Of a stretch of 64,000 bases of DNA, positions 14,105 to 47,124 are shown piece by piece. The stretch is from Syntrophaceae bacterium. GTDB taxonomy: Bacteria; Desulfobacterota; Syntrophia; Syntrophales; Smithellaceae. The position numbers and the translations under genes are program-made. The notes beneath the pieces were generated by a model. The model was not told the origin of the DNA and did not search any database. It saw nothing but the letters and a program-made list of their open reading frames with translations. Where the stretch lies: NCBI GenBank assembly GCA_018436925.1, contig JAHDKI010000014.1:62001-126000 (forward strand), in the 5' to 3' direction. Position 1 is the first letter of the stretch. Each line of letters starts with the position of its first letter.

Positions 14105-16389
14105 ATGATTCCATTCTTAGTCATTGCCGCAGCGATGATCGCCTGTCCCAGAGAAATGCCGCCGTCGTTGGTGGGGATCAGGCTGTGGCTGTAAACGTCG
14201 AATCCGTCTTTTGTAAGCCTGTCAATGCCGCCCTCCAGCAGAATTCTGTTCTGGAAGCAACCGCCGGAGAGGACCACACGGTTTAATCCGGTCGATTTTC
14301 GCATTTCGCCCGCCATGGCCGCAAAGATGTCAATCAGTGTCATGTGGAATGAAGCGGCGATCATGGCTTTGTCGCGGCCTGCCGTCAAATCGTCCACCAT
14401 GGCGCGGATCGCAAAATCGGTATCGACTCTATACGGTTCGCCGTCTTTTCGCAAGATGTCAAAAGGGTAGGGAGGTGCAGACGTTGTAGTTGCCAGGGCT
14501 TCGAGCTCCATGGCGGCCTGGCCTTCAAAACTGACCCTGTGGCGCAAACCCGCGAGCGCCGCCACACCGTCGAAAAGCCGTCCCAGTCCGGAAGACAAAG
14601 GCGATGCAATTTTTCCTTCGAGCATTCTATCGAGAAGATCCATCTGAACCTTTTCGGGAATCAGATTGAATCGTCCGGCGATTTCGCGCCAGGATGGGCC
14701 GTATGCGCTTTTAAGCAGGCTTGCGGCAATCCGCCAGGGCTCGCGCACGGCCTTTTCGCCGCCCGGCAGGACGAGATATTGCAAATGTCCGAAGCGCTGA
14801 AAACTGGTTTCGGACGCGATCAGAAACTCTCCGCCCCAGGCTGTTCCGTCCGGTCCGTAGCCTGTTCCGTCCATGGCCAGGCCGATCACATCGCCGTCGA
14901 TTTGATTTTCCGCCATGCAGCTGACAATATGGGCGTGGTGATGCTGAACCTGGATGATCCTTTCCGCTTTCAGCTCGCGCGCCGCCTGCGTGGAGAAATA
15001 AGCCGGGTGAAGATCGCAGGCGAGAATGGACGGATCGGTTTGGGTGATGCGTTTCATCAGCGCCAGGCTTTCGGAGAAAAAGTCGCGCCCCTGCGGCGTT
15101 TCCAGATCGCCGATATGGGGGCTGATAAAGGCAAAATTGTTTTTGACAATACATTGGGTGGTTTTAAGTTCTGCGCCCAGGGCCAGGACCGTCGTATAGC
15201 TTTGTTTCAAAGGCAGCGGCTGGGGGACGAAACCGCGCGACCGCCGCATCAGCCTTGTTTTTCCGGAAGCCGAAAAGGCGATGGAATCGTCGCAGCGCAC
15301 AAGAATGTCTCGGTTGTGCATCAGAAAGTAATCGGCGATGCCGGAAAGACGGGTAAGCGCTTCGCGATTGCCGATGCAGATGGGTTCGTCCACCTGGTTG
15401 GCGCTGGTCATGACAAGAGCCTTGAAATGCTTCTCCAGAAGCAGATGATGCAGGGGCGTGTAAGGCAGCATGATGCCGAGATTAGTCACGCCGGGGGCAA
15501 CGGATTCCGAAATGCGGCGGCTGTCATTTTTTTTAAGCAAGGCAATCGGCCGCTGAGGTGAAATCAGCATCGTTTCTTCCTCCTGGCTGATGACGGCAAT
15601 TTGCCTTGCCTGTGCGATATCGCGCACCATGACGGCCAGGGGTTTTTCTTCCCGGTATTTGCGTGCGCGCAGTATTCTGACGGCTTCGTCGTTTGCCGCA
15701 TCGACGCACAGGTGGAAACCGCCCAACCCTTTAATGGCAAGCACCTGGCCCGATAGAAGCAGATCGATGGCGGTTTGCACAGGATCATCCGTTGTTACCG
15801 AAGCACCGTCGCGATTCAGCAAGGTCAGGTGCGGGCCGCAAACCGGGCAGGCGTTGGGTTCGGCATGAAAGCGGCGGTCGGCCGGATTTTCATATTCCTT
15901 GCTGCATTCGGGACAAAGATCAAAACAGGCCATGGATGTATTGGCGCGATCATAGGGGACGGTATTGATGATGGTCAGTCGCGGTCCGCAGTTGGTGCAG
16001 TTGATAAACGGATACCGGTAGCGCCGGTTTGAGGGATCGAAAAGTTCGGCCAGGCAGTCGGGGCAGGTGGCCGCATCCGGCGGAATGTGCACATCCGCCC
16101 GGCCCTGATCATCGCTGGGGATAATCTGGAAGACCTGATCATTACGGATGTCGAGCATCGCTGATTCAATGCGTGTGATATTGGACAGAGGAGGCAGTTC
16201 CTCGCGGACCCGGAGGGCAAATGCATCGACAACCGGCGCCGGGCCTTCCACCTCCACGGTGACGCCTTCGGGGCGGTTTTGAACAAAGCCTGCAAGACCA
16301 TTTTGAACGGCAAGGCGATAGAGGAAGGGCCGGAAACCGACCCCCTGGACCACACCGTAAAAGCGATATTGAACTCTTTTGAGGTTCAC
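14101..16389 (-). CDS. hypF: Carbamoyltransferase HypF
   Basis: 762 residues, standard length, with a GTG start 4 bp after the hypB stop. Domains in order: acylphosphatase (FYGVVQGVGFRPF), two zinc fingers with paired CXXC motifs (CPDC/CTNC and CPEC/CPVC), a YrdC-like domain (ALKGLGGFHLC) and a Kae1-like C-terminal domain with the metal-binding HHHAH. It converts carbamoyl phosphate and ATP to carbamoyladenylate and passes the group to HypE. Carbamoyl phosphate would come from the carAB genes encoded 7 kb away. Confidence 0.97.
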   Translation of the reverse strand: MNLKRVQYRFYGVVQGVGFRPFLYRLAVQNGLAGFVQNRPEGVTVEVEGPAPVVDAFALRVREELPPLSNITRIESAMLDIRNDQVFQIIPSDDQGRADVHIPPDAATCPDCLAELFDPSNRRYRYPFINCTNCGPRLTIINTVPYDRANTSMACFDLCPECSKEYENPADRRFHAEPNACPVCGPHLTLLNRDGASVTTDDPVQTAIDLLLSGQVLAIKGLGGFHLCVDAANDEAVRILRARKYREEKPLAVMVRDIAQARQIAVISQEEETMLISPQRPIALLKKNDSRRISESVAPGVTNLGIMLPYTPLHHLLLEKHFKALVMTSANQVDEPICIGNREALTRLSGIADYFLMHNRDILVRCDDSIAFSASGKTRLMRRSRGFVPQPLPLKQSYTTVLALGAELKTTQCIVKNNFAFISPHIGDLETPQGRDFFSESLALMKRITQTDPSILACDLHPAYFSTQAARELKAERIIQVQHHHAHIVSCMAENQIDGDVIGLAMDGTGYGPDGTAWGGEFLIASETSFQRFGHLQYLVLPGGEKAVREPWRIAASLLKSAYGPSWREIAGRFNLIPEKVQMDLLDRMLEGKIASPLSSGLGRLFDGVAALAGLRHRVSFEGQAAMELEALATTTSAPPYPFDILRKDGEPYRVDTDFAIRAMVDDLTAGRDKAMIAASFHMTLIDIFAAMAGEMRKSTGLNRVVLSGGCFQNRILLEGGIDRLTKDGFDVYSHSLIPTNDGGISLGQAIIAAAMTKNGII

Positions 16390-33194: not shown

Positions 33195-35207
33195 TCATTT
33201 CGAGAAAGTCATCAGGATGCTTCCCGCTTCGACCGTTTGTCCCGGTTTCACGCGGATGTCCGAAACGGTGGCGTCAATGGGAGACGGCACGCCGCTTTCG
33301 AGTTTCATCGATTCCAGAAGGATCAGGTTTTGTCCCCGATAAACCCGCTCACCGGCTCCCACCAGAACATCCACCACCATGCCCGGCATGGGACAAATCA
33401 ATTGATTGTCCGGTATCTTTGCGGTTCTGCAAGGCATGAAATGCATCAGAAAATATTCCCGAGGCGTCAGAACGTCAAACAGTCGGGTCATCCCGTTGAA
33501 TGCGACACGCAGACAGGGGGGCTCAACGACGATACGAAATCTGCGCGTGCGGCCGTCAATGTCGAGTTTGAGTCTTCGGCGGTACAGTTCAAAAGGCGGC
33601 GCTTCAACATCGTAGTTGCGTCCGTTGACTGAAAAAATCCAGTGGTTGTCTTTGAGCGTTCCGGTCAGGCGAATGTCAAAAACGTCGTCTTCGGATTTCA
33701 CTTTATAACGACTGGTATTGGGCCGCGGACGCGACGTGCCGAAGTCTGTATCCGGCGGGTGGATGGATTTTCGAACGGCGATCGTGCGCACATGGTAAAT
33801 GAGCGTCGCGGCCAGCGCCGTGAGCGAAAGCGCTTCGGGGTCCGGTGGGTATTTAGAAGCGGCGCCGTCATAATGATCTTCAAGAAAATTTGTCGAGAGC
33901 TCTCCACGGATGAAAGCCGGCTGACACAAAATGGAATTGACGAAATCCAGATTCGTGACGACGCCTTCAATGTGATAGCCGTTTAACGCCTCCATAAGCA
34001 ACGCGCGCGCCTCGTCGCGCGTCTTTCCCCTAGCGATGACCTTCGCAAGGAGTGAATCATAGTGAATGCCGATTTTCGATCCCATCTGAATGCCGCTGTC
34101 CACGCGGACAGTTTCGCCGCGCGGTTCGGCGTATCTCGTGATCATTCCGGTGGCGGGAAGAAAGGCGCGCTGCGGGTCCTCCGCGCAGATGCGCGCTTCC
34201 ATGGCCCAGCTTGTCCGGATAATATCGTCTTGTGAAAAGGACAGGGGCTCAAGCGAAGCGATGCGAATCTGCTGCTCAACCAGGTCCAGGCCCGTGACGG
34301 CTTCAGTCACCGGGTGTTCGACCTGAAGACGCGTGTTCATTTCCAGAAAATAGAACGCTCCGTTGTGATCGTAGATAAATTCGACGGTTCCCGCGTTGAC
34401 GTAGCCCGCCTTTGAGGCCAGATCGCAGGCGGCCTTGCAGATGGCCGATCTCTGAGCGTCGGAAAGCACGGGCGAGGGGCTCTCTTCAATAATTTTCTGA
34501 TGCCTGCGTTGAATGGAGCACTCGCGTTCACCAAGATGAACGATGTTTCCATGGGCGTCGGCCAGAATCTGAACTTCAATATGGCGGGGGGATTCGATGT
34601 AGCGCTCGACAAAAATCCGGGCGTCTCCGAAGGCCTTGCGCGTTTCCTGACGGCAGGCGCCAAAGGCCGCTTCGACATCGCCTGCCGCTTTTACGACGCG
34701 CATGCCTTTTCCGCCGCCGCCCGCGGCCGGTTTGAACAAGACGGGAAAGCCGATGGACTGCGCGACGGCAAGCGCTTCGTCTTCGTTGGCGAGCGCTTCC
34801 ATATGCCCCGGAATGACGGGGAGGCCGGCGGAAATGGCCAGTTCCTTGGCGGCGATTTTATCGCCCATCAACGCGATGATCTCGGCCGGCGGGCCGATGA
34901 AAATGAGACCGGAGGATGTAATCTGTCGGGCAAAGGCCGCGTTTTCGGATAAAAACCCGTAACCCGGATGGATGGCCTGACAGCCGGTGGAGAGGGCCGC
35001 TTCAATGATCTTGCCCGCATGGAGATAGGAGTCCACCACCGCCGCTTTACCGATATAAACGGCTTCGTCCGCCAGCTGTTTGTGCAGGCTGTTTTTGTCC
35101 GCGTCGGAATACACCGCGACCGTGGCGATTTGAAGCTTTTTGCAGGCGCGGATGATGCGGCAAGCAATTTCTCCGCGATTGGCAATGAGAATTTTATCAA
35201 TCATCAT
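33195..35207 (-). CDS. Acyl-CoA (acetyl/propionyl) carboxylase alpha subunit: biotin carboxylase plus biotin carrier
   Basis: 670 residues. The N-terminal biotin carboxylase (ILIANRGEIACRII, AGGGGKGMRVV, EMNTRLQVEHPVTE) joins a BT-like linker and a C-terminal biotinyl domain whose Lys is in ESMKLES, a variant of the usual EAMKM. It carboxylates biotin with bicarbonate and ATP. The partner is the carboxyltransferase gene 6 bp upstream. The acyl specificity cannot be read directly; the beta subunit suggests propionyl-CoA. Confidence 0.93.
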   Translation of the reverse strand: MMIDKILIANRGEIACRIIRACKKLQIATVAVYSDADKNSLHKQLADEAVYIGKAAVVDSYLHAGKIIEAALSTGCQAIHPGYGFLSENAAFARQITSSGLIFIGPPAEIIALMGDKIAAKELAISAGLPVIPGHMEALANEDEALAVAQSIGFPVLFKPAAGGGGKGMRVVKAAGDVEAAFGACRQETRKAFGDARIFVERYIESPRHIEVQILADAHGNIVHLGERECSIQRRHQKIIEESPSPVLSDAQRSAICKAACDLASKAGYVNAGTVEFIYDHNGAFYFLEMNTRLQVEHPVTEAVTGLDLVEQQIRIASLEPLSFSQDDIIRTSWAMEARICAEDPQRAFLPATGMITRYAEPRGETVRVDSGIQMGSKIGIHYDSLLAKVIARGKTRDEARALLMEALNGYHIEGVVTNLDFVNSILCQPAFIRGELSTNFLEDHYDGAASKYPPDPEALSLTALAATLIYHVRTIAVRKSIHPPDTDFGTSRPRPNTSRYKVKSEDDVFDIRLTGTLKDNHWIFSVNGRNYDVEAPPFELYRRRLKLDIDGRTRRFRIVVEPPCLRVAFNGMTRLFDVLTPREYFLMHFMPCRTAKIPDNQLICPMPGMVVDVLVGAGERVYRGQNLILLESMKLESGVPSPIDATVSDIRVKPGQTVEAGSILMTFSK

Positions 35208-35213
35208 CCGGCC

Positions 35214-36767
35214 TCACAAAGGAATGTTTCCATGTTTGCGTTTCGGACCGCCGACGGTTTTGCCTTCCAGCATGCTCAGGGCGCGGATCAGATGACGCCG
35301 TGTATCCCGCGGATAAATGACATCATCGAGATACCCGCGTCTGGCTGCCCAGAACGGATTGACAAAGTGTTTCCTGTATTCGGACATTTTTTCGGCAAGC
35401 ATCTCCTCCGGGTCGGTCGCAGCCTGTATTTCCCGACGGTAGATTAACTCCGATGCGCCTTTGGGTCCCATCACGGCGATTTCCGCCGTCGGCCAGGCAT
35501 AGTTGACGTCCGCATGGATATGTTTGGAATTCATGACCAGATACGCACCGCCATAGGCCTTGCGGACAATGACGGTGATCCGGGGCACGGTGGCCTCCGT
35601 AAAGGCGTAAAGCAGTTTCGCGCCATGGCGGATGATGCCGCCATGTTCCTGCTGAGGGCCGGGCATGAATCCCGGAACATCCACCAGCGTGACCAGCGGA
35701 ATATTGAACGCATCGCAAAAGCGCACGAACCGTCCCGCCTTGACGGACGCGTCATTGTCGAGCACACCCGCCAGCACAGCCGGTTGATTGGCCACCAGCC
35801 CCACGGTCCGGCCGCCCAGGCGTCCGAAGCCGCAGATGATGTTTCGAGCGAAGCCCGCGGAAACCTCCATGAACTCCGCGCCGTCGAGAATGCTGTAGAT
35901 GAGCGTGTTCATGTCGTAGGTTTCCTGCGGATTATCCGGCACCAGATAATCGAGTGACGGATCAACGCGATCGGCCGGATCGAGCAAATCCAGATACGGG
36001 GGCATCTGCGTGCGGTTTGACGGCAGATAGCTGAAGAGTCTGCGGACGTCGCGCAGACACAGAATGTCGTTATCGGCGATGAAATGGGCGACGCCGCTCG
36101 TTTGCGCATGCATGCCCGCGCCGCCGAGTTCTTCGGACGTGATGTCCTGATGCGTGACGGTCTTGACGATTTTCGGGCCGGTGACGAACATGAAGGACGA
36201 TTCCCGAACCATGAAAACAAAATCGGTCATGGACGGGCTGTAAACCGCGCCGCCCGCGCAGGGCCCCATGATGCAGGAGATTTGCGGCACCACGCCGCTG
36301 GCGCGGACATTGCGGTGAAAGATTTCGCCGTAAGCGGCCAGAGCATCCACGCCTTCCTGCACCCGCGCGCCGCCGGAGTCGTTCAGCCCAATGAGCGGCA
36401 CGCCCACCTTGACGGCCATGTCCATCACCTTGCAGATCTTCTGTGAGTGCGCCTCGCCCAGCGATCCGCCCACGACGGTGAAGTCCTGACTGAAAATAAA
36501 AACCTGGCGGCCGTCGATCAGACCATGGCCTGTGACCACGCCGTCGCCGGCAAAGCTTTTTTCGTCACCGGTGGGGCCGCCTCGTCCTTTTTTCAAAACG
36601 TCGAATTCCTCAAAAGAATCCTCATCGAGTAAAAGATCGATCCGCTCGCGCGCGGTGAGTTTTCCCAGGGAATGCTGAAATTCTTTCTTCTCCAGGCCGC
36701 CCGCCTCAAAGGCTTCTTCACGCAGCTTGTCGAGCATCTCCCGTGTTTCGATATTGTAGTCTTTCAT
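35214..36767 (-). CDS. Acyl-CoA carboxylase carboxyltransferase (beta) subunit, propionyl-CoA type
   Basis: 517 residues from the ATG at 36767; a GTG two codons upstream is too close to its ribosome site. Crotonase-like halves carry the two oxyanion segments (CIMGPCAGGAVYSP and the FMPGPQQEHGGIIRHGAK region). The C-terminus KRKHGNIPL is usual for propionyl-CoA carboxylase beta and methylmalonyl-CoA decarboxylase alpha chains. It moves CO2 from biotin to the acyl-CoA (or the reverse if coupled to a membrane decarboxylase, whose other subunits are not here). Confidence 0.92.
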   Translation of the reverse strand: MKDYNIETREMLDKLREEAFEAGGLEKKEFQHSLGKLTARERIDLLLDEDSFEEFDVLKKGRGGPTGDEKSFAGDGVVTGHGLIDGRQVFIFSQDFTVVGGSLGEAHSQKICKVMDMAVKVGVPLIGLNDSGGARVQEGVDALAAYGEIFHRNVRASGVVPQISCIMGPCAGGAVYSPSMTDFVFMVRESSFMFVTGPKIVKTVTHQDITSEELGGAGMHAQTSGVAHFIADNDILCLRDVRRLFSYLPSNRTQMPPYLDLLDPADRVDPSLDYLVPDNPQETYDMNTLIYSILDGAEFMEVSAGFARNIICGFGRLGGRTVGLVANQPAVLAGVLDNDASVKAGRFVRFCDAFNIPLVTLVDVPGFMPGPQQEHGGIIRHGAKLLYAFTEATVPRITVIVRKAYGGAYLVMNSKHIHADVNYAWPTAEIAVMGPKGASELIYRREIQAATDPEEMLAEKMSEYRKHFVNPFWAARRGYLDDVIYPRDTRRHLIRALSMLEGKTVGGPKRKHGNIPL

Positions 36768-36829
36768 CGTCACTTCTTTCCCGGTTGCATCAAAAGGGTC
36801 TTTGAAAAATCAAAAACCGGTGCAACGCA

Positions 36830-37370: not shown

Positions 37371-38246
37371 CTATCTGTCTTTTGTCAATCGCTGGAACGC
37401 TTCTTGATATTTCTCAGCCGTCTTTAAAATGATTTGCTCAGGCAATGACGGCGCCGGAGGTTTTTTGTTCCAGGTCGTCGATTCCAGGTAATCGCGGATG
37501 AACTGCTTGTCGAAGCTGGGTGGAGACGATCCGGGGCGGTAAGAGCTGACCGGCCAAAAGCGTGACGAGTCGGGTGTGAAAAGCTCATCGATCAGAATCA
37601 GTCCTCCATCGGCCAGGCCGAATTCGAATTTCGTGTCGGCGATGATGATGCCGCGCTGTCTGGCGTAGGCTTCGGCAAAATTGTATAGCTCCAGGGAGAC
37701 GTCCCGGACCTGTCGGGCCATATCCGATCCGACGATATTTTCGGCATCGGCAAATGAAATGTTTTCGTCGTGCGCACCGGCGTCGGCCTTGGTCGAGGGG
37801 GTAAAGATGGCCTGCGGCAATTTTGCGCCTTCGATGAGACCCTTCGGAAGGGCGATGCCGCAGACATTGCCTGTTTTTTGATAATCTTTCCAGCCGGAGC
37901 CGGCCAGATACCCCCGGACGATCGCTTCAATTTTAAGCGGTTGTGCTTTTTTAACCAGCACGCTGCGGCCTTGCAGATCACTTTGGCTCCAGCGCTGCGT
38001 GTCGACCCAAGAATCAATCAGTGGCTCGGTGCTCACCAGATGGTTGTCAATGACATGCCTTGTCTTTTCAAACCAGAAATTAGAGAGCTTTGTTAATATC
38101 CGGCCTTTTTCCGGAATCGTATTGGGCAAAACATGGTCGAAGGCCGATATCCGGTCGCTGGCCACAATCAGAAGCTGATCAGGCTCTGGCGCCGCATAGA
38201 CATCGCGCACCTTGCCCTGGCGGATAAACTGGTACGTCTTTGTCAT
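37371..38246 (-). CDS. purC: SAICAR synthase PurC
   Basis: 291 residues. It shows GKVRDVY, SDRISAFDHVLPN, IVRGYLAGSGWKDY and DTKFEFG, all SAICAR synthetase landmarks; the length is that of the eukaryote-like long form. It is the first gene of the 15-kb operon and follows leader B by about 20 nt. Confidence 0.96.
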   Translation of the reverse strand: MTKTYQFIRQGKVRDVYAAPEPDQLLIVASDRISAFDHVLPNTIPEKGRILTKLSNFWFEKTRHVIDNHLVSTEPLIDSWVDTQRWSQSDLQGRSVLVKKAQPLKIEAIVRGYLAGSGWKDYQKTGNVCGIALPKGLIEGAKLPQAIFTPSTKADAGAHDENISFADAENIVGSDMARQVRDVSLELYNFAEAYARQRGIIIADTKFEFGLADGGLILIDELFTPDSSRFWPVSSYRPGSSPPSFDKQFIRDYLESTTWNKKPPAPSLPEQIILKTAEKYQEAFQRLTKDR

Positions 38247-38265: not shown

Positions 38266-38430
38266 ATAAAAAAGGCCGGGAGAAATCTTCAACAAGATTT
38301 CTCCCGGCCTTACTTTTCTTTCGCACCCTTGTTTTGAAGAAAGGGTCCGCTCAAACTCTCAGGCGTTTATGTTAAAGCCGCTTTCCCGGAAGGTATTGTT
38401 GTCAAGCAACCGAAAACTCAGCTTTTAATG
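38266..38430 (-). promoter_or_regulatory. Structured leader B (candidate riboswitch) upstream of purC
   Basis: Read on the minus strand: GCCTGAGAG (38364-38356), seven bases, GG, a hairpin (ACCCTT with AAGGGT), CGAAAGAAAAGTAAGGC, then the terminator stem. GCCT pairs with the AGGC that starts the terminator's 5' arm, and TTCCGG upstream (38392-38387) can extend this pairing to CCGGGA. A possible weak promoter lies at 38437-38465. It would control the whole purC-carB operon. Confidence 0.65.
38268..38311 (-). terminator. Intrinsic terminator of leader B
   Basis: An 18-bp perfect stem (AAGGCCGGGAGAAATCTT and its complement) with a CAAC-type loop, followed by six T on the minus strand, only 22 nt before the purC start codon. 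Acting on every transcript it would silence the operon, so it must be conditional. Confidence 0.8.
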
Positions 38431-39204: not shown

Positions 39205-41940
39205 CTAACATTTCAGGCTGAATTTTTTATCCCGGCGTGCGGACATGCGCTGACGCAGCCACTTCTCCGTTCCAATAATGGCGTAAACCGCCAGAGAGAC
39301 GAAGATGACGATGATCCAGTCCTGCCCGGATATCGGCGCACTGGAAAAAAGACGGTTCATGAAAGGCGCGTATGTAAACAGAACCTGCAAAATAATCATC
39401 AGGCCGCAGCCCAGAAGCAACCAGGGATTCGTAAACACGCCCAGTCGAAACATGGACTTGGTCAAAGACCGGGAGTTGAAAAGATAAGCCATACTGGCCA
39501 TGACCAAAATGTTGACCGCCACTGTTCGCGCGACTTCCAGGGAATACCCATTGGCTTTCTGCCAGGCAAAGACGGAAAATACCGCAATCAGCAGCAGCAC
39601 GGAAACGAGCGCAATCCGGCCGACGACAACGCCTGACAGGATCGGACTCGCCGGATGCCGCGGCGGATATTTCATCGTGTCCGTTTCGCCCGGCTCAAAA
39701 GCCAGCATCAACCCCAGAAAAACGGCCGTAGTCATGTTGATCCAGAGGATTTGCACCGGCAGGATGGGAAGCGTTGTGCCGCTGAAAATAGAGGCGAGGA
39801 TGACCAGCCCCTGGCCGCCGTTGGTTGGCAACGTCCAGGCAATGAACTTGACCAGGTTGTCGAATATCCGGCGCCCCTCCTCTACGGCGGCTGTAATGGA
39901 GGCGAAATTATCGTCGGTGAGCACCATATCCGCAGCCTCTTTGGACACATCCGTGCCGGTGATGCCCATGGCCACGCCGATATTGGCCTGCTTCAGCGCA
40001 GGCGCATCATTGACGCCGTCGCCGGTCATCGCCACGATATGATTACGCGATTGAAGCGCCTCCACGAGGCGCAGTTTTTGTTCCGGCGCCACGCGGGCAA
40101 AGACGCTGGTGCTTTCGGCGGCTTGAATCAGTTCTTCATCCGTCAGCGCTTCGAGTTCGGCGCCGGTCATCGCGGCGGGTCTCTGATTAGGGACATCGGT
40201 ATGTATGCCGATGCCCAGCTGCCGGGCGATTTCGGAGGCGGTCGCGGCGTGATCGCCGGTAATCATCTTCACTTGAACGCCTGCTTCGCGGCAGACGATG
40301 ACGGCGCGGATGGCTTCCTTGCGCGGCGGATCGATCATGCCCTGCAGACCTAAAAACGTCAGACCGGAGAGGCAATCTTCGGTTTCAATACGGTCCTTTG
40401 CGCAGATCTTGCGGGCAAAAATCAGCACGCGCAGGCCTTCGGAGGCAAGCCGGTTTGCTTCCGAAAGAAGGGCGGTCCTGTCGATGGAAACGGTGTCGCC
40501 GTCCGACGCCATGGCGTCGGAACAGGCCGCCAAAACCTTTTCAAGGGCGCCTTTCACGTATATGACGTTTTTGCCGCTTGCCGAGTGATGCAATGTTGCC
40601 ATGAACTGCCGCTCGGACTCAAAAGGCACGACATCCACACGAGGCAGCGTTGCGTGAATGGTATGGCTGTCAAACCTCGCCTTGCCTGCGGCGGAAAGCA
40701 GAGCGCCTTCCGTCGGATCGCCTTCCACTCTCCAGAGATTCCCGGTGTTCACCAGGCGCGAATCGTTGCACAAAAGACCGGCCAAAAGTGTTTCGTAAAG
40801 CGCGGCGGGAAGCGTATTTAACGGCGCCTTTCCGGAAAGAATATCGCCTGTGGGGGCATAACCGTTGCCTTCAACGCTGTAAACCGAGTCGCCCGCATAG
40901 ACCTTGCGCACGGTCATCTGGTTTTCTGTGAGGGTTCCCGTTTTATCCGAGCAGATCACGGTCGTGCTGCCCAGCGTTTCCACGGCGGGCAGTTTCCGGA
41001 TGATGGCTTTTTTTCTGGCCAGGCGGTTGACGCCGATGGCCAGTGTGATGGTCACGGCGGCAGGCAGTCCTTCCGGAATAGCGCCCACGGCCAGAGCGAC
41101 GGCGGCCATGAACATGTCGATTGCCGTTTCGCCGCGGATCATGCCGACGGCGAAGGTTACGGCAGCCAGCGCCAGAATAACGATCAGGAGAACCTTGCTG
41201 AAGGCCGCAATTTTTTTGGTGAGCGGCGTGGCGAGATCCGCTGCGGAAGCCAGCATTTCGGAGATTCGGCCGATTTCCGTTTTGTCCCCGGTGCTGACGA
41301 TAAGCGCCTGGGCCTGTCCGTAAGTCACCAGCGTGCCCGCATACACCATGTTATGCCGGTCGGCGAGAACAGTTTCCGGCGGGAGCGTGTCCGTTTTTTT
41401 GAGAACCGGGACGGATTCACCGGTCAGGGCGGACTCGTCAACTTGGAGTTCGCGGCAGTTGAACAACCTTGCGTCGGCCGGAACTTTGTCGCCGGACTGG
41501 AGTTTGATGATGTCTCCGACGACCAGCTGCGTCGAGTCGCAGGAGATCCATTTTCCGTCTCGAAGCACGTTGGCCTGGGTGGTCATCATCTGTTTGAGCG
41601 ATTCAATGGCCCGCTCGGCTTTGGCTTCCTGGACATAGCCGATGATAGCATTGAGCATCACCACGCCGAAAATCACGGAGGAATCGACCCATTCGCGAAG
41701 AAACAGCGTGATGAGGCCGGCCAGAAGGAGAATATAAACCAGCGGCTGGTTAAACTGCTGCAGAAACTGCACGATGCGGCTTTTTTGTTTTTTGGCGCTG
41801 ACCCTGTTGGGACCGAATTTATCCAAACGATGTTTGGCCTCAAACAGGGACAGGCCTTTGGTCGTGTTGCTGCCCAGCAGCGTTGCCACTTCGTCGGCCG
41901 GGCAGTGATGCCAGTGTTTGCTGATGAGTTGTTCTATCAA
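39205..41940 (-). CDS. P-type cation-transporting ATPase (type IIA, Ca2+/Na+ pump-like)
   Basis: 911 residues from a TTG behind GGTAGGAA. The N-terminal cation ATPase domain (HWHHCPADEVATLLG) precedes the actuator loop TGES, the phosphorylation site DKTGTLTEN, the hinge GDGVNDAPAL, and about ten membrane helices. The helix 4 motif PEGLPAAVTI is that of type II Ca2+, Na+/K+ or H+ pumps. The transported ion is not certain. It has its own leader (C) and terminator. Confidence 0.9.
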   Translation of the reverse strand: MIEQLISKHWHHCPADEVATLLGSNTTKGLSLFEAKHRLDKFGPNRVSAKKQKSRIVQFLQQFNQPLVYILLLAGLITLFLREWVDSSVIFGVVMLNAIIGYVQEAKAERAIESLKQMMTTQANVLRDGKWISCDSTQLVVGDIIKLQSGDKVPADARLFNCRELQVDESALTGESVPVLKKTDTLPPETVLADRHNMVYAGTLVTYGQAQALIVSTGDKTEIGRISEMLASAADLATPLTKKIAAFSKVLLIVILALAAVTFAVGMIRGETAIDMFMAAVALAVGAIPEGLPAAVTITLAIGVNRLARKKAIIRKLPAVETLGSTTVICSDKTGTLTENQMTVRKVYAGDSVYSVEGNGYAPTGDILSGKAPLNTLPAALYETLLAGLLCNDSRLVNTGNLWRVEGDPTEGALLSAAGKARFDSHTIHATLPRVDVVPFESERQFMATLHHSASGKNVIYVKGALEKVLAACSDAMASDGDTVSIDRTALLSEANRLASEGLRVLIFARKICAKDRIETEDCLSGLTFLGLQGMIDPPRKEAIRAVIVCREAGVQVKMITGDHAATASEIARQLGIGIHTDVPNQRPAAMTGAELEALTDEELIQAAESTSVFARVAPEQKLRLVEALQSRNHIVAMTGDGVNDAPALKQANIGVAMGITGTDVSKEAADMVLTDDNFASITAAVEEGRRIFDNLVKFIAWTLPTNGGQGLVILASIFSGTTLPILPVQILWINMTTAVFLGLMLAFEPGETDTMKYPPRHPASPILSGVVVGRIALVSVLLLIAVFSVFAWQKANGYSLEVARTVAVNILVMASMAYLFNSRSLTKSMFRLGVFTNPWLLLGCGLMIILQVLFTYAPFMNRLFSSAPISGQDWIIVIFVSLAVYAIIGTEKWLRQRMSARRDKKFSLKC

Positions 41941-42031: not shown

Positions 42032-42070
42032 AGAAAAAAAGCCAGGACTGATCAACCGATCATTCCTGGC
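42032..42070 (-). terminator. Intrinsic terminator of leader C
   Basis: Stem GCCAGGA with TCCTGGC plus an inner GATC/GATC pairing, followed by seven T on the minus strand. It lies about 90 nt before the ATPase start, as a conditional terminator would. Confidence 0.75.
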
Positions 42071-42181
42071 CAGACATTTTTTCCGATCTCTTTGCGTGTG
42101 AAGCAAAGACCCCGTTTAAACTCTCAGGCTGTGGGTCTGCCATTTCGAAGGCGGCTTAATCAAACCCCCGTTGAACTGACT
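42032..42181 (-). promoter_or_regulatory. Structured leader C (candidate riboswitch) upstream of the P-type ATPase
   Basis: Read on the minus strand: GCCTGAGAG (42129-42121), seven bases, GG, a hairpin (GTCTTTGC with GCAAAGAG), CGGAAA, then GTCTGGC leading into the terminator stem. GCC can pair with GGC at the start of the terminator's 5' arm. The hairpin sequence is different from that of B and D, but its position is kept. Confidence 0.6.
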
Positions 42182-42187
42182 TCGTGC

Positions 42188-42257: not shown

Positions 42258-42647
42258 CTACGTCGGCTGAGTTTTTGTTTTCTCCGGAAAATCAGGCGGT
42301 TGTTCCAATGTAAAGAGAATGATCCGCTCTCCCGTTGCGGTGCTGATGTCGGTGTGCAGACTGATGATTTTTACCCCAAGAATCTTTTCCAGGGCGTTTT
42401 CCAAAAGGGGCCGACCTTGCTCCATCAGGGTGATGCGCACGCGCTTGATCAACTCGCGTCCATCCTTACGGTCGGTATGCGTTGCCAGGCGCAGTTCAGC
42501 CGGCGTGAGCACCTTTTTCAACCGGACAAGCACCATATCTTCAATCATGTATGCTTTCGTTTCCAGCGGGCCTCGGCCCATATAGTCTTTCTCAAATTTG
42601 GTCACAGCCTCGCATATCTCCGATTCGATTTGCCCTTTGGTTTTCAT
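42258..42647 (-). CDS. DUF2294 domain protein
   Basis: 129 residues. YMIEDMVLVRLKKVLTPAE, DGRELIKRVR and HTDISTATGERIILFTLE match DUF2294, a small family without known function found in several anaerobes and Firmicutes. It follows the kinase-like gene by 38 bp on the same strand and is probably the last gene of the DUF4914 operon. Confidence 0.75.
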   Translation of the reverse strand: MKTKGQIESEICEAVTKFEKDYMGRGPLETKAYMIEDMVLVRLKKVLTPAELRLATHTDRKDGRELIKRVRITLMEQGRPLLENALEKILGVKIISLHTDISTATGERIILFTLEQPPDFPEKTKTQPT

Positions 42648-42685
42648 AAATCATCCTGTCTGCGTTTTGTAGAATCGCTCGGATG

Positions 42686-43546
42686 CTATAACAAATCCCC
42701 TCGGAATTCCAGCATTTCAAAATCGACCAGCGCATAGGCCGGCTTTCCCCTGTATGAGAGCAAACCGTCTTTTTTCCGGCGGAGAATGATGTGCTGCGGT
42801 TTGTGGTCCGGCACACGAAACGATGCTTGTGCGAGATCGTTTTGAACTCGCAGTGTGATTTCATTTACCTGTTCATGCGTCAAGACCCCCTGGCAATGAA
42901 GATCCCATGCATTTTCGCCGGTGACCCATTGAAAAATCAGAATGTATTCGCGGGAGATGTCCAGATCGATGCGGGAGTCGCCGGAGATATTGCGCTGGTC
43001 GCGGGCCAGTGACTCGCGGCAGCGTTCAAAGCGCCAGCTTGAGCGGTCGAGCTGGTCGGGTGGCCATCGGCGCTCGGGTGAAAAAATGGCCAGCGGTCTT
43101 TTGGTGAGAAGCGATGTTGCGCCCCGAAGTGACGCGCGACGACGCAGTTGAAATAAGAGACCGAATTCCTCAAATGGATTATTGATATGCAGCGCGGCCA
43201 ATGAGCTGCAGGACATGCCGTCCGGAGGACAACTCGCGGTATAGTGCAGGGTCTTTTGTCCCAGGCGGCTGAATTTGACGACAAGATTTAGCAGGCGATG
43301 GTTGCGGTAAACCGCAACACGGTAAACGGTCCCGATTCCGGCCGATTGGCGTTGGCCGTCAAGCCGGTACCGGTCATGATCATACCAGGATTCAGGGTGA
43401 AGCCAATCCAGCCAGGGTTCCCCAAGTTGCGTGACGAAAAGATCTCCCGAGTTTTCAACGGAAATCCATTGGTAGTCCACACCATAAGCGTTTGCTTTTT
43501 TCACCCTGATCGGTGAGGAATCAAGCGGAGTCGCAGCCCAATTCAT
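42686..43546 (-). CDS. Uncharacterised protein with kinase-like C-terminal motif
   Basis: 286 residues, start overlapping the previous stop (ATGA). No family is recognised with certainty. The C-terminal part reads VPDHKPQHIILR, then a short insert and YALVDFEML. This resembles the catalytic loop (D-x-K-P-x-N/H) and the DFE/DFG segment of protein-kinase-like or Kdo-kinase-like folds. There is no clear glycine-rich loop. It could phosphorylate a small molecule or protein; the similarity is by eye. Confidence 0.5.
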   Translation of the reverse strand: MNWAATPLDSSPIRVKKANAYGVDYQWISVENSGDLFVTQLGEPWLDWLHPESWYDHDRYRLDGQRQSAGIGTVYRVAVYRNHRLLNLVVKFSRLGQKTLHYTASCPPDGMSCSSLAALHINNPFEEFGLLFQLRRRASLRGATSLLTKRPLAIFSPERRWPPDQLDRSSWRFERCRESLARDQRNISGDSRIDLDISREYILIFQWVTGENAWDLHCQGVLTHEQVNEITLRVQNDLAQASFRVPDHKPQHIILRRKKDGLLSYRGKPAYALVDFEMLEFRGDLL

Positions 43547-45093
43547 GAGAATCTCCTTCCAGCAGAGCTATTTGCAGAATTTGTCGATTGGAAACCTCCT
43601 TTGCAGGCGGCCTTCCGAAGGCGATCATTAATGGCGATTCCAATGCCGGATTCTTCCGGAGGTATGGCAATAATGGCGGCAAGACCGATGGCATCGAGTC
43701 TGCGCATGGCCGCATAAAGGTTGGCCGCCGCCTCGTTCAGATCGCCCGACAAACTGAGAATCTCGACCGGGCCTTTAAGCGCCTGTTTCGCCGGCGAAAA
43801 AAGAAGCGCTCCGATATCGGGTCTGTTGGAAAAGCCATCGAATCTGTCGACCAGGTATAACGGGGTTTTCGTTGCGTAATGAGAAGACAGCATCCCGGGA
43901 CTTTCACGCGGCTTTTCCTGATCGTTCAGAGCCGATGAAATTGCAATCGGGCCCGCAAGCCGCTTGATGTCGCTGGGTGAGACGGCCCCGGGGCGCAGGA
44001 GGCGCGGAATATCGTCGGTGAGGGACAAAACGGTGGATTCGAGACCGATCCGACACGCGCCTCCGTCGATCACGGCATCGCAAAGGTTTTGCAATTGCGT
44101 CATGACATGTGCCGCCGACGTGGCGCTGGTGCGTCCGAAAAGATTGGCGCTGGGCGCCGCAATGGGGGTTTCCGACAGACGAATGAGTCCGGCGGCAAGC
44201 GGGTTGGCAGGCATGCGCACCGCCACGGTGGAAAGGCCGGCGGTGACAATGTCCGGGACGGTATGCTTTTTGTTAAAAATGAGTGTGAGGGGGCCGGGCC
44301 AGAACCGGTTGATGAGCGGCCAAGCGGCATCCGGAATATCGGCCGCCAAGGAAGCGAGTTGTTCAATGTCTGCAATGTGGACGATCAGCGGGTTGTATAG
44401 CGGACGGCCCTTGGATTCAAAGATCTTTGCAATGGCTTTCGTGTTGAACGTGTCCGCGCCTAATCCGTAAACGGTTTCGGTGGGAAAGGCCACAAGCCCC
44501 CCTTTTTTGACAACAGCTGCTGCGCGCCGAACGGAATCCTCAAGTTGCAAGGCAGGTTTTGGATGTTTGCCGATCCAGTGGGCGGCATCCGAAAGAGAAT
44601 GAAAGACAAGGCGATCTGAGGGAAGGTTGGTCAGATGGCGGGCGCCTTCGCCGCTTAAGAGATACAGTCCGAACACACCGAGAGATTCGCCGCAGCGGAC
44701 GGTGTCGGGATGATTGCCGATCATGAAGGATTGAGATAAATCGATGTCGTAACGCGAGGCTGCTTCCCGTAGAAAAATGGAGTTGGGGCTCAGGCAGTCG
44801 CATGATTTTTTGTCGCGATGGGAGCAGACAAACCCCGTTTTGATTTGAATGGACTTTGTCCTTAATGGATTGTCGGCTGACAGGTTGACTCCGCCAATAT
44901 GACGGGATGGTGACCGATCGTCCGGGATGCCGGATTCATGGACGAGTCCGAAGAGGTCATAATGCCGGCTCAGGATTTCCAAGGATGCAATTGTGTCGGC
45001 ATCAAGCCGGACCGGATCTTTGCCGCTGAATGACTCTTCCATATCCATGATGGCGTCGCGATCCAAGAAGATCGCCGGCTTGCGGTTATCCAT
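43543..45093 (-). CDS. Fusion: GmhB-like HAD phosphatase + Sua5/TsaC threonylcarbamoyl-AMP synthase
   Basis: 516 residues from the ATG overlapping the DUF4914 stop. Residues 1-180 are HAD-like: FLDRDA (DxD nucleophile), a zinc-site-like CSHRDKKSCDC, and a variant acid motif GNHPDTV where Asp is expected first. Residues from about 190 are Sua5/YrdC: AFPTETVYGLGAD, SKGRPLYNPLIVH and APSANLFGRTSATS, plus the Sua5 C-terminal SSHYAT. TsaC/Sua5 makes threonylcarbamoyl-AMP for tRNA t6A. The fusion with a HAD phosphatase is unusual and raises the possibility of a different nucleotide substrate. Confidence 0.75.
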   Translation of the reverse strand: MDNRKPAIFLDRDAIMDMEESFSGKDPVRLDADTIASLEILSRHYDLFGLVHESGIPDDRSPSRHIGGVNLSADNPLRTKSIQIKTGFVCSHRDKKSCDCLSPNSIFLREAASRYDIDLSQSFMIGNHPDTVRCGESLGVFGLYLLSGEGARHLTNLPSDRLVFHSLSDAAHWIGKHPKPALQLEDSVRRAAAVVKKGGLVAFPTETVYGLGADTFNTKAIAKIFESKGRPLYNPLIVHIADIEQLASLAADIPDAAWPLINRFWPGPLTLIFNKKHTVPDIVTAGLSTVAVRMPANPLAAGLIRLSETPIAAPSANLFGRTSATSAAHVMTQLQNLCDAVIDGGACRIGLESTVLSLTDDIPRLLRPGAVSPSDIKRLAGPIAISSALNDQEKPRESPGMLSSHYATKTPLYLVDRFDGFSNRPDIGALLFSPAKQALKGPVEILSLSGDLNEAAANLYAAMRRLDAIGLAAIIAIPPEESGIGIAINDRLRKAACKGGFQSTNSANSSAGRRFS

Positions 45094-46954
45094 CAGACAG
45101 TCCGAGAAGTTGTTCGTAATCATAGACGCTCCCGTCCGAGAGACAGCATTCGATGATTTGGCGGCCGATCGCGTCCAGGTCCGGTTCGAGAAAGGTTGCG
45201 AGCTGTTCATGAAAGAATTGGCGCAGCCGGCGCGCGCCTTCATCGTAAGCGGCCGGGCCGACTTCGGGCTGCAAATCAACTTGCAAAAGCCATGGCGGAA
45301 TCAGCGCGCCTTCAATCCGCATGCTTTTGAGCGCGTATCCGAGAAGCGGGGAGCGCGCGGGAGCGAGCTGGTCGCTCAAAAAGCGGGCGTGACCCCGCCT
45401 GGCCAGGTAATCGCGCGCCAGCCATTGAGGTGTGAATCCGGTTTCCCACGCCCCCACATGCTGATTGGGAATCAAGATGTAGCGCGTTTTCAAGGTTTGT
45501 TGAAACTGGCGCAAAAGGAGATTGGCCTGATCTACACGGCGTCCTGTGGCGAAAGGCCAGTAACTGCCGACGCCTTCGCTTTCCAGTTCGTCACCGCCGA
45601 CGATGCTGGGGTTGGAATATCCGCGCGGCGCGACCAAACGCCACAACCAGGCAAGGGATGCAGGCAGAACATGAAAAAGCCCGAGAATACCGTAACTGGG
45701 TTGCTCGGCCGTGCAGGGAGGCGTTCGCACGCCGAACGATCGGATATCCACGGCGACCTTGTCGTACACCGCGTTGGGAACGATGCTGCGTGGAATGATC
45801 ACGCGCGGATTGGGGCAGGGAATGCCCGGCGCGTCGGAAATGTGTTCCCAGATCAGAGCCGTGGCACCCGGCGCCGCGTCAATATTCAGAAACAGCAATG
45901 ATCGGCCGGGATGAATCGAGAGTTTTTCAATGTCGTGATCCGTTCCATAACTCTTGATATGATTGACGCGAATGAACCATCCATCTTCGGCGTCCGTCAG
46001 AAAAAGCTTGCCGTTGTCTTCCTGGAAATCGGGATGGCAAAGGCCCATATCGTCACAGACGGGATGGAGCTCGCAGGTGCGCTGAATTTCAATGTGTCTT
46101 TCTTCTCCCGAAAGAATGTTTTTGCCGATGGGCAGTCGCCCGTCGGGGAGGCGGTGCGGTTGCTGGAGCATTTCACTTTTTCCGCCGCCGCTGGCTCCTT
46201 CATGCATGAAGGTCACGATGTTATCGTAAGGCGTGACCACCTGGACGGCAGAGCAATGGGCCGTTACCCATCCCTGATTGGCTCCGACGTTGATCAAAGC
46301 GCCATAAACGCCCTTTTTGGCGCTGGGACCCGGGTACAGGTTATAAGAAAAAATCTCATGTGTATCCACTCTGTGATGGACGACGACCTGCTTGCCCTGA
46401 AAATGGGTGTGGCGGAAAGGAGGCGCGATAAATAAAATGGTCGATGGACGGTAAGGCTTGTCCAGGGCGTCAAGATCCAGGACACCCTGGAGAAGGCCCA
46501 GGCCGAAAGCGAAGAATCCGGCGTTGGCGGGGCATATGGCCAGCGCCGTGGCGCCGGCCCCGGGGCGGCCCATATCAAAGGCGAAAACAGCCAGGGGTTG
46601 CTGCGCAAGCCATTGAAATGTTTCGAGGCGGAGGGGAGCGAAGTCATAACCGAATCGCTCGGCAAAAAGAGGTTTGTCGGTCCGTCCGCCATCCGCAATG
46701 ACCATGCAGTCCGGGTCTCTTCGTCTCATGTAGGGATCGCTGTAATTGGCGCTGATGCCGTTTTTAACCCGGACAACGGACGCTTCGTGAAGGGTTCTTC
46801 CGTCGGGAAGCGTGTAGCAGACATCATAGGCTTGCACGCCTTTACCGCCGCAGGCCAGATCTTCAAGCTCTGAAATGCTGCCTGCAAAAGCCACACGCGG
46901 GGCTTTGGCAAGCAATGCGACGATCTCGCCGGGTAATATCAGTTTGTCAATCAT
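45086..46954 (-). CDS. DUF4914 family PEPCK-like protein
   Basis: 622 residues. It carries a kinase-type P-loop, EGASGGGKSEM, where ATP-PEPCK has GxxGxGKTT. Other landmarks are MVIADGGRTDKPLF near the N-terminus, YDNIVTFMHEG before the P-loop and SEGVGSYWPFATGRRVDQANLL near the C-terminus, the last typical of DUF4914 proteins as I remember them. It lacks the GTP-PEPCK motifs, so phosphoenolpyruvate carboxykinase activity is doubtful. Likely a PEPCK-fold ATP/GTP-dependent enzyme of unknown substrate. It is the first gene of the DUF4914 operon, with leader D just upstream. Confidence 0.7.
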   Translation of the reverse strand: MIDKLILPGEIVALLAKAPRVAFAGSISELEDLACGGKGVQAYDVCYTLPDGRTLHEASVVRVKNGISANYSDPYMRRRDPDCMVIADGGRTDKPLFAERFGYDFAPLRLETFQWLAQQPLAVFAFDMGRPGAGATALAICPANAGFFAFGLGLLQGVLDLDALDKPYRPSTILFIAPPFRHTHFQGKQVVVHHRVDTHEIFSYNLYPGPSAKKGVYGALINVGANQGWVTAHCSAVQVVTPYDNIVTFMHEGASGGGKSEMLQQPHRLPDGRLPIGKNILSGEERHIEIQRTCELHPVCDDMGLCHPDFQEDNGKLFLTDAEDGWFIRVNHIKSYGTDHDIEKLSIHPGRSLLFLNIDAAPGATALIWEHISDAPGIPCPNPRVIIPRSIVPNAVYDKVAVDIRSFGVRTPPCTAEQPSYGILGLFHVLPASLAWLWRLVAPRGYSNPSIVGGDELESEGVGSYWPFATGRRVDQANLLLRQFQQTLKTRYILIPNQHVGAWETGFTPQWLARDYLARRGHARFLSDQLAPARSPLLGYALKSMRIEGALIPPWLLQVDLQPEVGPAAYDEGARRLRQFFHEQLATFLEPDLDAIGRQIIECCLSDGSVYDYEQLLGLSDG

Positions 46955-46973: not shown

Positions 46974-47017
46974 TAAAAAAAGGCTTGAATCCGTGAATAT
47001 TCACGGATTCAAGCCTT
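46974..47017 (-). terminator. Intrinsic terminator of leader D
   Basis: A perfect 19-bp palindrome (AAGGCTTGAATCCGTGAAT and its complement, 46980-47017) followed by seven T on the minus strand, 20 nt before the start codon at 46954. Confidence 0.8.
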
Positions 47018-47118
47018 ACTTTTCTTTCGTTCCCAGACAGCCGGGGCCCGATAAAACGCTCAGACTTTATGATGGATCCCTTCGGGAAAAACAAAAGTCA
47101 TATTTTTCCCGACCGGAT
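46974..47118 (-). promoter_or_regulatory. Structured leader D (candidate riboswitch) upstream of the DUF4914 operon
   Basis: Read on the minus strand: GTCTGAGCG (47065-47057), seven bases, GG, a hairpin with GGCCCC and CTGGGA, CGAAAGAAAAGTAAGGC, then the terminator stem. The 17-nt block is identical to that in leader B. GTCT can pair (with one wobble) to AGGC of the terminator arm. Further upstream, CGGGAAAAA and TTTTTCCCG form an extra hairpin. It would govern the DUF4914-HAD/Sua5-kinase-like-DUF2294 operon. Confidence 0.65.
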
Positions 47119-47124
47119 TTGTGC

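Follow-up and report, generated by a model that had tools for sequence, protein, structure and literature searches.

The described systems that come closest to the locus studied here are the ATP- and GTP-type phosphoenolpyruvate carboxykinases (PEPCK), HprK/P, the TsaC and Sua5 proteins, the protein kinases and the riboswitches and attenuators of Rfam. TsaC consumes bicarbonate (PMC11648230), t6A responds to CO2 (PMC5951830), and the presence of TsaC and Sua5 together in one genome is reported as rare (PMC10321239). In this work, we analysed a stretch of 64,000 nucleotides from a Syntrophaceae bacterium (contig JAHDKI010000014.1, positions 62,001-126,000 of the forward strand; hereafter the window), which carries an operon encoding a DUF4914 protein, a HAD-Sua5 fusion, a kinase-like protein and DUF2294 behind a structured leader RNA (Table 1). 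An earlier note on this DNA had raised the possibility of a nucleotide or carbamoyl pathway that is not yet known. The PEPCK fold of DUF4914 and its neighbours across phyla point elsewhere, to phosphoenolpyruvate (PEP), oxaloacetate and bicarbonate metabolism. We propose that DUF4914 probably acts at the PEP-oxaloacetate-bicarbonate node, that the operon probably serves carbon-dioxide and oxaloacetate metabolism, and that the leader is a candidate for a new class of regulatory RNA. Taken jointly, this is our best explanation, with a probability of roughly one half. DUF4914 occurs in many phyla, with 564 relatives among the candidate stretches that one scan returned, and Thermotoga maritima has a Pfam match. 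A literature search returned no paper naming DUF4914 and none on the HAD-Sua5 fusion.

The AlphaFold2 model of DUF4914, built like the conservation analysis from 39 sequences, has a predicted local distance difference test score (pLDDT) of 91. Foldseek matched it to PEPCK over the full length (E 1e-23), with PEPCK as all of the best matches and template modelling (TM) scores of the leading ones of about 0.62-0.66 by query and 0.61-0.77 by target. Both methods thus agree with the earlier suggestion of a PEPCK-fold protein with the altered P-loop GASGGGKSE (residues 253-261). In the hhalign alignment, NLYPGPSAKKG, TAHCS and GASGGGKSE pair with WYGGEMKKG, SMHCS and GLSGTGKTT of Escherichia coli Pck, and a later DDM pairs with the DD of the GTP-type PEPCK resident in the same genome. 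DUF4914 therefore keeps the P-loop and the Mn2+-site Lys, His and Asp of PEPCK (KKG, HCS, DD), invariant in the 39 sequences, as are R78, Y207, K213/K214, H233, D301/D302 and R384. By a hand alignment, R78 and R384 would occupy the positions of R65 and R333 of E. coli Pck. The Pfam models of canonical ATP- and GTP-PEPCK gave no match, and the best NCBIfam PEPCK score was 10.6 bits against a cut-off of 806. Judging from sequence and model together, DUF4914 forms a branch of the PEPCK superfamily that is yet to be characterised. Since the window genome carries a separate canonical PEPCK elsewhere, of the GTP type by its sequence, DUF4914 is an additional PEPCK-fold protein.

The genomic neighbours of DUF4914 were compared in 105 loci, in which we distinguished sequence near the gene (within 3.5 kb; 634 kb in all) from sequence farther away (556 kb). 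A set of 27 genes of bicarbonate supply or use or of PEP, oxaloacetate and aspartate metabolism gave 38 near matches and 3 far ones, against 2 near and 5 far for 44 housekeeping control genes in the same loci. Pfam and NCBIfam confirmed SbtA, PurK, PurE, Ppc, carbonic anhydrase, PckA, citrate synthase, Asd, PurA, PurC and a citrate/DASS transporter among the neighbours. Representative arrangements are Ppc-DUF4914-PurK-PurE-SbtA (locus L095), DUF4914-kinase-PurK-PurE-SbtA (L107), DUF4914-kinase-carbonic anhydrase (L117), citrate transporter-DUF4914-PckA (L104, L122), DUF4914-citrate synthase (L106, L133) and CarB-DUF4914-HAD-Sua5 (L057, L065). The PEPCK fold, together with neighbours rich in bicarbonate and oxaloacetate/aspartate genes, places DUF4914 probably at the node named above. 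Because TsaC consumes bicarbonate and t6A responds to CO2, Sua5 also fits there, and carbamoyl chemistry (Sua5, CarB) finds its place as a set of bicarbonate-using neighbours.

In the kinase-like protein the HKP and DFE motifs noticed before are present, as part of the sites VVK (K91), EE (126-127), DHKPQH (D247, K249 and H252, the last replacing Asn) and DFE (D275). Although searches with Pfam and NCBIfam gave no match and its profile nothing useful against PDB sequences, structure prediction and Foldseek agree on a kinase fold (pLDDT 81; protein kinases at probability 1.00, E 2e-4, TM about 0.35). In window numbering, the family shows Lys or Arg in the N-lobe, E127, D247-x-K249-x-x-H252 and D275-[FY]-E277; instead of the HRDxKxxN and DFG of Hanks-type kinases, D-x-K-x-x-H and D[FY]E were found in 10 of 10 sequences. 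The Asn-to-His change presumably resembles that of the WaaP/KdkA family. Relatives lie directly downstream of DUF4914 in Chromatiales, in Verrucomicrobia and in one planctomycete. Among 195 Verrucomicrobiota genomes, the single-domain kinase-like gene was found in 5 and DUF4914 in 14; all five have DUF4914, unlinked to the kinase-like gene in four. Without the seed genome the co-occurrence is 4 of 4 (hypergeometric p ~1e-5, uncorrected for relatedness). A related family of about 560-640 amino acids with two kinase-like domains (L006-L010 and L013, in genomes G036, G033, G039, G034 and G001; Verrucomicrobiota loci such as L171, L175 and L181) is not tied to DUF4914; we rejected these double-domain proteins as partners, for they mostly occur without it.

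The second gene is a true fusion, as the earlier note had it, with matches to Sua5_yciO_yrdC (E 5e-59), Sua5_C (E 6e-22), TIGR00057 (206 bits, cut-off 123) and GmhB-type HAD-IIIA (E 4e-14). Its Sua5 part keeps K228, R230, S315 and N317 (KxR, SxN), invariant in the alignment of the fusion with its relatives. The HAD phosphatase of the earlier note fared less well: where an active HAD has DxDG, S/T, K and GDxxxD, the window copy has LDRDA, VHES, CDCLSP and GNHPD. Since most of the catalytic motifs are lost, the HAD domain is probably not an active phosphatase here. These motifs are intact in genomes G024, G037 and G049, eroded in G005 as in the window, and reduced to a remnant in G146. Full fusions were found in 5 of the 155 genomes of the order-level survey, directly after DUF4914 in all five, and the same pair occurs in Spirochaetales (L068). 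Three Chloroflexi loci (L108, L125, L132) have an unfused Sua5 in its place, and the loci L074 (where it begins like an intact one) and L081 a HAD alone. The window genome has three further Sua5-domain genes, by sequence type a canonical TsaC, a YciO-like protein and HypF, and the fusion was accordingly rejected as the sole TsaC of this genome. Both TsaC (G000:C18) and Sua5 (the fusion) are thus present in one genome, and the HypF, of 763 amino acids, contains its TsaC-like domain at 15238-15762 of the window (minus strand). The statement that no gene of the operon belongs to a standard pathway does not hold for the Sua5 part, which belongs to a standard reaction.

All four open reading frames are present as described before, overlapping or closely spaced on the minus strand, with a gap of 38 base pairs between the last two, and the fourth encodes DUF2294, for which Pfam now uses the name MpsC. 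All three partners are found again beside DUF4914, each in several phyla and at short intergenic distances; DUF2294, for example, lies at most 3.3 kb from DUF4914 in seven loci of several phyla, the window not counted. The gene order of operon pairs is kept across phyla, whereas the complete four-gene order was found only in the window and in G005. In the latter (L054, 9407-9793) the kinase-like gene has decayed, and DUF4914, HAD-Sua5, DUF2294 and a P-type ATPase gene are retained. With a separate TsaC in the genome and pairwise order conserved, neither of the outcomes that, according to the earlier note, would make the cluster incidental was obtained. The four genes are a real, conserved functional set, in a partly conserved operon.

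Several points weigh against a role at the PEP-oxaloacetate-bicarbonate node. The list behind the 38 near matches was partly chosen after the neighbours had been seen, and many of the matches come from related genomes or from one operon. Fifteen genes queried unseen gave 4 near matches (Ppc, carbonic anhydrase, AspC, MaeB) and 2 far ones (carA twice), and about three quarters of the DUF4914 loci have no such neighbour. MpsC is dispensable for bicarbonate transport in Staphylococcus aureus (PMC6689103), and a profile search of the window genome found no MpsB/DabA (PF10070), as an MpsABC transporter would require; a local bicarbonate transporter including MpsC is therefore unsupported, and not too much should be read into the name. 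A GTP-PEPCK is already present in the genome, and in two flavobacteria a canonical PckA lies directly beside DUF4914, which indicates that the latter is not simply a replacement PEPCK. Finally, the P-loop ends in KSE, which we take to be like HPr kinase, so that a protein-kinase role is possible. We regard the neighbourhood as good but not conclusive evidence.

Other genes were observed around DUF4914. A PocR-AraC type regulator is divergent to it in Verrucomicrobia and Planctomycetes (L135, L107, L126, L224, L226, L227, L230-L232), with LysR regulators in that place at L102, L113, L130, L091, L140 and L141. By our reading of the sequences, DUF4914 adjoins a [NiFe]-hydrogenase and hyp genes in L056/L057 (G037, G049) and a HydF-like GTPase in L054/L055 (G005, G024). 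Small one-cluster proteins stand beside it at L079, L091, L102 and L105, the last with a member matching S30AE (ribosome hibernation type). In the window itself, again as read from the sequence, biotin-carboxylase-like and carboxyltransferase-like genes, also bicarbonate-using, lie just past purC (34001-36773, minus strand).

The leader RNA is the most novel part of the locus. A structured leader had been claimed before, and the evidence is stronger than the claim: a folding z of -6.3, a terminator, covariation and repeated copies. The same leader precedes DUF4914 in G005 and G024, where stem sequences differ and pairing is kept, and AAGAAAAGTAAGG recurs exactly once elsewhere in the window, in the purC leader, before a terminator. 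According to RNAalifold, G[CU]CU pairs with the AGGC that opens the terminator stem, which is antiterminator logic. A covariance model (R1) built from the DUF4914 leaders of the window, G005 and G024 and from the purC leader of the window picked up two copies that it had not been built from, both upstream of the P-type ATPase gene: one in the window (1.9 Mb searched, E 1.3e-4) and one at the same place in G005 (E 7e-7), each followed by a terminator. In G005 this ATPase has 92% identity and keeps its place in the gene order; such ATPases also lie near DUF4914 in other genomes, as in L105, where one of 58% identity is directly downstream of it. In an alignment of the six sequences, which was fitted to the model and so leans towards structure, 89.7% of the cells are paired and 12 pairs changed on both sides, values that 0-1 of 500 shuffles attained; when the partner is shifted by one base, the pairing falls to about 55%. 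The leader thus has the general form of an attenuator: ahead of a gene, a structured domain that covaries overlaps with an intrinsic terminator. No Rfam 15 family reached its gathering threshold anywhere in the window, and permissive scans of the three leaders gave only scattered sub-threshold matches. A weak match of covariance model R2 in L241, between DUF2294 and DUF4914, was rejected because the core sequence is missing.

Table 1. Features of the DUF4914 operon and of the genes sharing its leader (positions in the window)
Feature	Position	Strand	Details
DUF4914 gene	45086..46954	-	622 amino acids, PEPCK-superfamily fold; Pfam PF16260, E 9e-290, full length
HAD-Sua5 fusion gene	45093-43543	-	8-bp overlap with DUF4914 gene
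HAD-IIIA (GmhB-like) N-terminal domain of fusion	44530..45093	-	NCBIfam; alignment with intact relatives
Sua5-type threonylcarbamoyl-AMP synthase part (TsaC-like + Sua5_C)	43543..44514	-	TIGR00057 E 3e-61, PF01300, PF03481
Kinase-like gene	42686..43546	-	286 amino acids, unclassified protein-kinase fold; 4-bp overlap with HAD-Sua5
DUF2294/MpsC gene	42258..42647	-	129 amino acids; PF10057 E 1e-36
Leader copy 1, DUF4914 operon	47013..47120	-	GUCU pairs with AGGC starting the terminator stem; covariation
Intrinsic terminator	46980..47017	-	perfect 17-bp stem and T-run, about 25 nucleotides before the DUF4914 start codon
Leader copy 2, upstream of P-type ATPase	42069..42182	-	followed by terminator
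Leader copy 3, upstream of purC	38307..38424	-	exact AAGAAAAGTAAGG repeat; followed by terminator
P-type cation ATPase (Ca2+/PMR1-like)	39205..41940	-	Pfam/NCBIfam; same leader
purC (SAICAR synthase)	37371..38246	-	NCBIfam E 5e-130; same leader

Other explanations of these data have to be weighed. DUF4914 might be a regulatory kinase/phosphorylase of the HprK/P type, whose target would be a protein (a carboxylase, MpsC or the kinase-like partner, for instance) and whose counter-phosphatase would be the HAD domain. Its P-loop, GxSGxGKSE, presumably resembles that of HprK/P, the adjoining genes encode a kinase-fold protein and, in relatives, a HAD with intact motifs, and its small-molecule substrate is only predicted. 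We consider this unlikely, given that the Foldseek match to PEPCK spans the full length with 0 of the 50 best matches to HprK/P, that the PEPCK substrate-site residues R78, Y207 and R384 are invariant, and that the neighbours are metabolic. A quite improbable alternative is that a mobile DUF4914 gene came to lie by accident beside housekeeping genes, so that the operon would hold four unrelated functions. The distribution of DUF4914 is patchy, with the gene in 2 of 395 genomes of the phylum and 8 of 155 of the order; most loci lack a common neighbour, and the decay in G005 would also fit. Recurrence of the three partners at short gaps in several phyla, the co-occurrence of unlinked kinase-like and DUF4914 genes, and the stop/start overlaps speak against accident. 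Highly improbable, in our judgement, is the nucleotide or carbamoyl pathway of the earlier note, in which Sua5 would make a carbamoylated product from the product of DUF4914. The adjacency of Sua5 and CarB and the shared leader of purC could be read in its favour, and the separate TsaC would free the Sua5 part from housekeeping, a coexistence reported as rare (PMC10321239). Most DUF4914 loci, however, have no Sua5, and Ornatilinea (L108) has, apart from HypF, no TsaC/Sua5 other than the one linked to DUF4914, which must therefore do ordinary t6A synthesis there.

For the leader, a competing account has a substantial chance, somewhat short of even, of being correct: the leader would be a terminator element, passive or bound by a protein, that was spread by duplication nearby, and not an RNA that binds a ligand. 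Only three genomes have the leader, all copies found lie in one neighbourhood, and no further copy was found in the DUF4914 loci of other phyla or in the ~1.9 Mb of the window genome searched (window included; about 55% of the genome, so that further copies may exist). On the other side, conservation of the unpaired core (UGAGAGUUU..CGG, AAGAAAAGUA) goes together with covariation in the stems, purC and the ATPase are unrelated genes, and stem and terminator compete.

With DUF4914 placed at the PEP-oxaloacetate-bicarbonate node, it would be a metal-dependent phosphotransferase or carboxylase, predicted from sequence and model to be probably active. The simplest reaction would be PEP + CO2 to oxaloacetate, or a close relative, with a nucleotide or another compound as phosphate acceptor and in either direction. 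To this the operon would add a bicarbonate-using Sua5 paralogue and MpsC/DUF2294, as well as a partner of kinase fold that tracks DUF4914 in its occurrence. In this family the operon would be under the control of the leader as a candidate attenuator or riboswitch: the stem that closes its aptamer-like domain (G[CU]CU with AGGC) would compete with a strong terminator lying immediately ahead of the ribosome binding site. As the same RNA precedes the cation pump and purC, the three units are probably one regulon that would answer one signal. It is possible, if rather doubtful, that the leader is a riboswitch of a new class, which senses a single metabolite or ion of the CO2/oxaloacetate/purine node (or else a metal common to PEPCK-type enzymes and the cation pump) and so places a PEPCK of an undescribed kind, its kinase-fold partner, the P-type ATPase and purC under joint control. 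Knowledge of its ligand would reveal which signal links oxaloacetate supply, ion transport and purine synthesis. Moreover, superfamily placement, conserved catalytic residues and neighbourhood offer a testable enzyme function for the orphan family DUF4914 and for its companion family of kinase fold.

Compared with known systems, the leader shares with the riboswitches and attenuators of Rfam an aptamer-like multi-stem domain overlapping an intrinsic terminator, yet it belongs to no Rfam 15 family at threshold. The fusion resembles Sua5, the long form of TsaC, in its TsaC-like domain, Sua5_C and KxR/SxN residues, and differs from it in the N-terminal HAD and in being an extra copy besides a normal TsaC; the HAD part is like GmhB and other HAD-IIIA phosphatases in profile and in its CxH...CxC pattern, with motifs eroded in the window genome and G005. 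Likeness of the kinase-like family to protein kinases (FIKK13, ULK2, Rio1) lies in the N-lobe Lys, the helix-C Glu, the catalytic Asp and Lys and the DFG-like Asp, whereas the catalytic-loop Asn has become His, DFG has become DFE or DYE, Lys is Arg in some members, family models do not match and the structural similarity is low. From HprK/P, DUF4914 is set apart by its best Foldseek matches, its greater length and the retained PEPCK substrate residues. With ATP-PEPCK (PF01293) and GTP-PEPCK it shares the whole fold (TM about 0.65 by query), the P-loop, the Mn-site K/H/D and the substrate Arg/Tyr positions; it differs in its identity of only about 15%, with no Pfam PEPCK match, in GGGKSE where PEPCK has GTGKTT, in an additional segment between the P-loop and the DD motif, and in its coexistence with a canonical PEPCK.

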